This document shows positions 48,923 to 49,260 of a stretch of DNA of 64,000 bases, one piece after another. The stretch comes from Halorussus rarus. GTDB lineage: Archaea; Halobacteriota; Halobacteria; Halobacteriales; Haladaptataceae. The number at the start of each line of letters is the position of its first letter. Position 1 is the first letter of the stretch. The DNA lies in contig NZ_QPMJ01000002.1 of the NCBI RefSeq assembly GCF_003369835.1, positions 620,001-684,000 on the forward strand. The letters run 5' to 3'. Position numbers and translations under genes: made by a program. The notes under the pieces are model-generated. The model had not been told where the DNA came from. It worked only from the letters and a program-made list of their open reading frames with translations, and did not search any database.

Positions 48923-48993
48923 GCGCCGGTAGTGTAGTGGTATCACGTGACCTTGCCATGGTCGCAACCTGGGTTCAAATCCCAGCCGGCGCA
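48923..48993 (+). tRNA. tRNA-Gly (anticodon GCC)
   Basis: 71 nt. Acceptor GCGCCGG (48923-48929) pairs with CCGGCGC (48986-48992), discriminator A. Anticodon loop TTGCCAT gives GCC at 48956-48958; T-arm CTGGG-TTCAAAT-CCCAG. CCA not encoded. An AT-rich TTATTTA element lies about 40 bp upstream (48882-48888). Confidence 0.97.
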
Positions 48994-49166
48994 CTTCTCT
49001 CGGATTCCACGCTCGCGAAGTTTCATCTCCTCGTATTCACGGAATTCGAGTAATTCGGTTTGCGGGATTTGAACCCCGCCAGTCGCACGCTCGCGCAGTG
49101 ACCGAAGGGAACGAGCAAGAACGTCTGGCTCCGGTTCACAATTCCAGCCGGCGCACTTCTCTCGGA
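48982..49166. repeat. Duplicated tRNA-Gly 3' end (attachment-site-like repeat)
   Basis: A 23-bp exact repeat begins in the tRNA-Gly T-arm (48982-49004) and recurs at 49144-49166, each preceded by GGTTCA. The 139 bp between includes a reverse-strand T-arm-like segment at 49061-49080 (GGGATTTGAACC). This is the pattern left when an element integrates at a tRNA 3' end and is later lost. Confidence 0.7.
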
Positions 49167-49171
49167 CGCGA

Positions 49172-49188
49172 ACCGGTGAGCCACCGGT
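49172..49188. repeat. Hairpin with three-base loop
   Basis: ACCGGTG-AGC-CACCGGT, perfect 7-bp arms, six bases after the second tRNA-end copy; same shape as the gpmI and rnp1 hairpins. Confidence 0.7.
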
Positions 49189-49260
49189 GTATCGTCCCTC
49201 CCGACGCGACGGAGCGCGGCGACGAAACATTGATTTGTGACTGACCATTCAGTTAACTAC

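Follow-up and report, generated by a model that had tools for sequence, protein, structure and literature searches.

Directly behind tRNA genes, haloarchaeal genomes carry a widespread and apparently undescribed family of hairpin units of ~100-190 bases. One of them follows tRNA-Gly(GCC) in the window, the 64,000-nt stretch of Halorussus rarus DNA analyzed here. A unit consists of the tRNA 3' end, the trailer, a spacer, an inverted T-arm copy (A') and a core hairpin, and behind it the tRNA 3' end is repeated in direct orientation (A''). Judged from sequence comparison, the units are likely mobile, and we assign a probability of about 0.5 to the reading that they are micro-elements without genes that target tRNAs and move by site-specific recombination acting on the T-arm via a DNA hairpin, the hairpin-site mechanism being one that we infer.

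The tRNA-Gly(GCC) locus of Halorussus rarus

The tRNA was matched by Rfam at 48923-48993 with 64 bits; nothing else around the locus reached the gathering score, the remaining matches being sub-threshold and chance-like. A first-pass annotation had described a repeat of the tRNA 3' end, a minus-strand T-arm-like segment and a hairpin with a three-base loop past the second copy, and all three were recovered (Table 1). The 3' end is seen again 162 bp downstream over 27 nt (48978-49004 against 49140-49166, 96% identity), of which 23 bp are exact (48982-49004 and 49144-49166), and the inverted segment is a perfect complement over 13 nt. The arrangement goes beyond chance, since it recurs behind many other tRNA genes.

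Table 1. Features of the tRNA-Gly(GCC) locus, in window positions
Feature	Position	Strand	Basis or remark
tRNA-Gly(GCC), host gene; presumed attB-like target	48923..48994	+	ARAGORN; Rfam tRNA
T-arm GTTC of tRNA-Gly	48973-48976	+	
Direct repeat copy 1 (tRNA 3' end + 10 bp trailer)	48978..49004	+	
Spacer	48995..49063	+	
A', inverted T-arm copy, 13 nt	49064..49076	-	perfect complement of 48971-48983
Conserved core hairpin CCAGTCGCA ... GAACGTCTGG	49079..49128	+	
A'', T-arm (from GTTC), acceptor strand and trailer copied in direct orientation	49134..49166	+	
Putative 161-bp repeat unit, tRNA GTTC to A'' GTTC	48974..49134	+	GTTC motif spacing
Hairpin ACCGGTG-AGC-CACCGGT, 7 bp, 3-nt loop, in flank past A''	49172..49188	+	

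Overlooked in that annotation was the core hairpin, which sits between the inverted and the direct copy, has no visible tRNA origin and is common to the whole family. It is built from a CCAG/CTGG stem, a T.T mismatch, a second stem and a variable tip. The spacer contains a predicted 10-bp hairpin, CTCGGATTCC (48999-49008) / GGAATTCGAG (49041-49050). A'' is presumed to be the native tRNA 3' end pushed away by an insertion, and the exact crossover point at the unit bounds is a putative one.

On the minus strand, an ORF of 101 aa (48943-49248) overlaps both the tRNA and the unit in antisense. It is almost surely spurious, but annotation pipelines may call ORFs of this kind.

A dispersed family matched to its tRNAs

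Among 59 relatives, the repeat region (query part about 163-285) matched many sites outside the tRNA-Gly locus, and the H. rarus genome itself holds further copies behind tRNA-Phe, tRNA-Ser and tRNA-Asn, each with the copy of its own tRNA. A core-only pattern that contains no T-arm letters (CCAGTCRCAN{15,45}GNMYGTCTGG) gave 44 matches in 24 of the 59 genomes, against 1 for the reversed pattern used as control. A same-strand tRNA lay within 250 nt upstream in 28 of 30 fetched loci, with nine isotypes represented; the two tRNA-less loci were L055, a member of the second family described below, and L057, probably a chance match. Tandem neighbours occurred among these loci (L042/L064 and L046/L065). 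A longer pattern, run on 84,980 species genomes, returned 33 matches in 32 stretches, every one with a haloarchaeal title (the record titled 'Actinarchaeum halophilum' is Halocatena halophila, Halobacteria). A tRNA was detected within 250 nt ahead of 28 of the 33; the exceptions were L199, L200, the second match of L202, L215 and L220, four of which showed broken or truncated tRNA ends by eye.

A covariance model (R1) matched 51 of the 59 relatives at E 0.01. At E 1e-8, across genomes sampled evenly from the phylum, its hits fell in 40 of 43 members of the same order (Halobacteriales) and in 0 of 203 others. For locus statistics, 120 regions fetched from the best matches of the phylum sample were combined with 16 loci from earlier searches, at least five best matches being left out (G139:C1:872777, G034:C7:27960, G191:C3:53728, G191:C2:668681 and G163:C1:1358556). 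The 115 cmsearch hits and 45 rows, minus seven (five same-place duplicates and two weak ones), gave 153 model hits; own-genome hits below 41 bits, namely nine second-family copies and L262, a core-like hairpin away from tRNAs, stood outside the tRNA-linked count. A same-strand tRNA was located within 400 nt 5' of 147 of the 153 strong hits and within 250 nt of 143, and the tRNAs of the 147 comprised 17 amino-acid isotypes plus one undetermined. Among the six unlinked hits, inspection by eye showed a truncated, tRNA-like 3' end ahead of L311, L333, L370, L387 and L428 but not of L314. The spacing between the two GTTC motifs was 93-192 bp (median 135.5, n=112 single units). Rfam matched only tRNA at 11 unit loci, and no description of such units was found in a search confined to open-licence literature.

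Both copies follow the local tRNA. In statistics that treat loci without regard to relatedness, A'' had a mean score of 20.5 against the 3' part of its own tRNA and 10.7 against other isotypes, and in 138 of 147 cases no other isotype scored as high as the own tRNA; identity to the own 3' part had a median of 0.95 (n=144) and reached at least 90% in 74% of cases. On the same footing, A' (as reverse complement) scored 11.5 against 9.24 (sd 0.13) for permuted pairings, with 0 of 300 permutations as high, and of the 110 cases in which the variable T-loop base could be read, tRNA and A' agreed in 104; in a further 37 it was unreadable. The GTTC junction motif was present in A'' of 144 of 146 scored units. 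The units thereby show the direct tRNA 3'-end repeat with an intact tRNA at one end that marks a tRNA-targeted integrative element.

The core stem is conserved as a pairing. Of 1074 core cells in alignment A2, fitted by the model and made up of 115 rows (112 distinct), 99.3% were paired, and 9 of 10 core pairs had changed on both sides, in 214 cells against 51.4 in shuffled data and at most 52 with the partner slid; these counts come from hits selected and aligned by the model itself, with seeds chosen partly for a complementary stem. The first stem takes the forms GAAG, CCAG, CGAG, CAAG, TCAG, GGAG and rarer ones, with complementary partners, and the four-base linkers flanking the stem co-vary, CCTG going with CTCC and similar, and TAGA/CAGA with GCGT/GCGA. 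G-U accounted for 5 of about 1066 paired core cells, compared with 56 of 1250 in the acceptor and T stems of neighbouring tRNAs, a scarcity that points to DNA rather than RNA. In the outer arm A'/A'', 66.5% of cells were Watson-Crick and 9.3% G-T pairs, by a crude alignment. The window copy taken alone folded no better than shuffles (z -0.55).

A second dispersed family, away from tRNAs, has the same core hairpin (GGAAGTCGCA ... GGAACGTCTTCC) and inverted ends (GACTGAAAGGGGC ... GGGGGCTTTC). Its members are nine copies in the H. rarus genome (G000; L261, L263-L269 and L271) and L055 in G013; L261 and L268 seem to carry the hairpin module twice. In the MAG QS_4_69_31, the units L199 and L220 abut a truncated or interrupted tRNA-Asp, as an insertion into the T-arm, or a deletion reaching it, would leave them.

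Filled and empty orthologous loci

Behind tRNA-Gly(GCC), 16 congeners (G003 and G012 being left out of the comparison) comprised six filled loci (G000, G001, G002, G006, G015, G016), one truncated (G004) and nine empty (G005, G007, G008, G009, G010, G011, G013, G014, G017). Behind tRNA-Asn, 13 parsed congeners, not counting four further unparsed loci, comprised six filled (G000, G001, G004, G006, G011, G016) and seven empty (G002, G005, G007, G009, G010, G015, G017). Filling thus goes with the locus and not the genome: G011 is empty at tRNA-Gly and filled at tRNA-Asn, and G002 shows the opposite.

Alignment of the filled tRNA-Gly locus of G015 with the empty one of G014 revealed a single insertion, followed by native flank behind A''. 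Comparison of G004 with G015 at tRNA-Asn gave the same picture by eye, plus an extra insertion inside A''. The integration part of the first-pass annotation, an att-like duplication of the tRNA 3' end, is borne out here, and at both loci compared the native flank resumes past the second copy where the locus is filled, which is what an insertion would leave. At the tRNA-Gly locus, some species have linkers of class I and others of class II, and two units stand in tandem in G001 and in G023; different linker classes at one locus together with tandem units are what repeated insertion would give. The filled and empty patterns fit gain and precise loss between the repeats alike, and the patchy orthologous presence agrees with a small mobile unit no less well than with a functional tRNA-linked element.

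Two arrangements are recorded as side observations. The extra insertion, of the TCGAAAATCG...CGATTTTCGA type, splits the tRNA-Asn A'' in L260/L430 (own genome) and in L434 (G004). In L310 (G033), two tRNA-Gly(GCC) genes lie 1.7 kb apart with near-identical units and two spacer-hairpin types in swapped order.

Proposed mechanism, alternatives and related systems

In the micro-element reading, a recombinase, most likely of the tyrosine family, would recognise the T-arm and exchange strands at about G|TTC. The incoming unit would bring a new 3' end, thereby restoring the tRNA, and the native tRNA 3' end with its trailer would be left behind the unit as A''. Folding of a single strand of A'-core-A'' onto itself could recreate a duplex T-arm site, following the logic of integron attC. 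Because A'' begins with GTTC and A' ends with GAAC, A'-core-A'' forms a single long, imperfect inverted repeat with the target itself as its outer arms; this repeat, together with a tRNA 3' end restored by the unit, fits exchange at about G|TTC. A more far-reaching version, which we regard as doubtful, is an integron-like haloarchaeal system with T-arms as attI, in which single-stranded A'-core-A'' sites would recombine at G|TTC and spare-3'-end cassettes would accumulate; a host or mobile recombinase would act, and the short cassettes would pile up in arrays behind tRNA genes.

No recombinase, excised circle or excision event came to light. At 161 bp here and 93-192 bp elsewhere, the units are too short to encode an integrase. 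A search of the 59 relatives for the broad family PF00589 (Phage_integrase) found such genes in 57, in genomes with and without units, so that integrase presence does not discriminate. Between different tRNAs, the tips had an identity of 0.51 within one genome (n=278) and 0.49 between different genomes of the same family (n=1177), compared with 0.58 for the same tRNA in the same family (n=75); these values give no visible sign of recent spread inside genomes. As for cargo, a gene cassette between two units was considered at L202 and L311 and none was shown: the 1.4 kb between the units of L202 look like a gene region duplicated in tandem, and L311 looks like a truncated tRNA duplicated together with its unit.

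The core box of attC is GTTRRRY, unlike the GTTC box at the unit junction; the resemblance to integron attC lies in architecture alone and does not extend to the core sequence. Like attC, as described in passages of PMC9668308, the units have an inverted repeat in which short arms are conserved, spacers stay unpaired and the tip varies, and they share with integron cassettes a direct boundary motif at each junction and tandem arrays. They do form an attC-type imperfect inverted repeat with a variable tip and conserved pairing; unlike integron cassettes, they have no cassette gene, and their target is a tRNA. In the available passages of this survey of archaeal integrons (PMC9668308), 'Halobacteri' has 0 occurrences. 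Archaeal attB sites include tRNA 3' ends, with the T-arm among three known attB regions, according to passages of PMC8371274; like the tyrosine-recombinase elements in those passages, the units have a direct repeat of the tRNA 3' end and keep an intact tRNA. They differ from such elements in having no integrase or other gene within their 93-192 bp between GTTC motifs, and in having a conserved core hairpin, a tRNA-matched inverted arm and tens of copies per genome. In E. coli, the rtT repeats stand in tandem behind tyrT and contain the tRNA 3' end, to our knowledge at one locus only. The units likewise repeat the tRNA 3' end behind the tRNA; they are dispersed, in contrast to rtT, and show no Rfam match to rtT or any family.

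Several alternatives were weighed against a mobile micro-element. A tRNA-linked structured RNA is possible, if rather unlikely: the unit would be co-transcribed, and A' would pair with the T-arm or A'', so that the product could serve as a switch, a decoy in processing or a small RNA. The fixed orientation and distance behind tRNAs, the compensating core pairs and the presence in 40 of 43 Halobacteriales genomes suit such a role, as does the minimum free energy fold of the whole locus, in which A' is base-paired to the T-arm of the tRNA and A'' to the 5' acceptor strand (z -1.81, 4 of 100 shuffles as good). However, G-U pairs occur at roughly a tenth of their frequency in the adjacent tRNAs, the copy runs beyond the tRNA end into the trailer, which an RNA role would not need, presence at orthologous loci is patchy within one genus, and no Rfam family matches. 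An SMR/MITE-type mobile hairpin is improbable; the core alone would move into palindromes, the T-arm being one target, and the duplication would be secondary, through slippage or unequal recombination. In its favour, the core also occurs in the second, tRNA-free family with its nine copies in the own genome, and core sites lie within or against a truncated tRNA-Asp in L199 and L220. As presented in passages of PMC3119063, SMR-A of Haloquadratum walsbyi targets IS605/PATE palindromes, inserting by an unknown route and with no target duplication. The units resemble it (PMC3119063, same passages) in being haloarchaeal, about 110 bp long, palindrome-targeted and present in many copies, with inverted ends and unknown mobilisation, and differ in sitting behind tRNAs and holding the tRNA 3' end twice. 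Nearly every unit duplicates the tRNA 3' end, whereas SMRs are described without target duplication, and 147 of 153 hits stand behind tRNAs rather than in PATE/IS605 palindromes; the tRNA-free second family might qualify as PATE/IS605-targeted SMR-A.

The first-pass annotation had gone on to call the locus the remnant of an excised or collapsed element, and this part did not hold. A direct tRNA 3'-end repeat is the classical attL/attR signature, as one excised or collapsed large integrative element would leave. Yet what stands here is a compact unit belonging to a dispersed family, with a conserved, compensating core hairpin behind many isotypes and in many genera, and remnants of unrelated elements would not share a core; we therefore consider this origin quite improbable. 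The short arrangement is indeed conserved across distant genera, which that annotation had named as a finding that would refute its own reading, and a full-length element bounded by the core was found at none of the loci looked at. A viral scan with the core pattern gave at least 120 stretches, 80 of them listed as loci L070-L149; among the 120 core matches counted, an A'/A'' pair of T-arms was absent from all, and 3 showed a single weak motif. With a stricter viral pattern there was one match, an ordinary tRNA T-arm in another context, and blastn of 49000-49170 against phage and plasmid records gave none. An IS200/IS605-type (Y1 transposase) or PATE-like element is hardly credible: subterminal palindromes and tRNA-free core relatives in the own genome would suit it, but the Y1 transposase (PF01797) is absent from the own genome and from unit-rich genomes such as G001, G003, G011, G020, G035 and G052, and present in unit-less ones such as G036, G037, G054 and G056. 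Its absence from several unit-rich genomes largely refutes it as the current mobiliser. The own genome has one TnpB gene.

In archaea, mobile DNA lands chiefly at tRNA genes. The units, often partly mis-annotated as short proteins or pseudo-tRNA, are present in nearly every Halobacteriales genome sampled and would amount to a recombination (or RNA) system that has gone unnoticed in plain view. They make testable the capture and exchange of tRNA 3' ends, the existence of folded single-stranded recombination sites beyond integrons, and the mobilisation of the puzzling small mobile repeats that haloarchaea carry.
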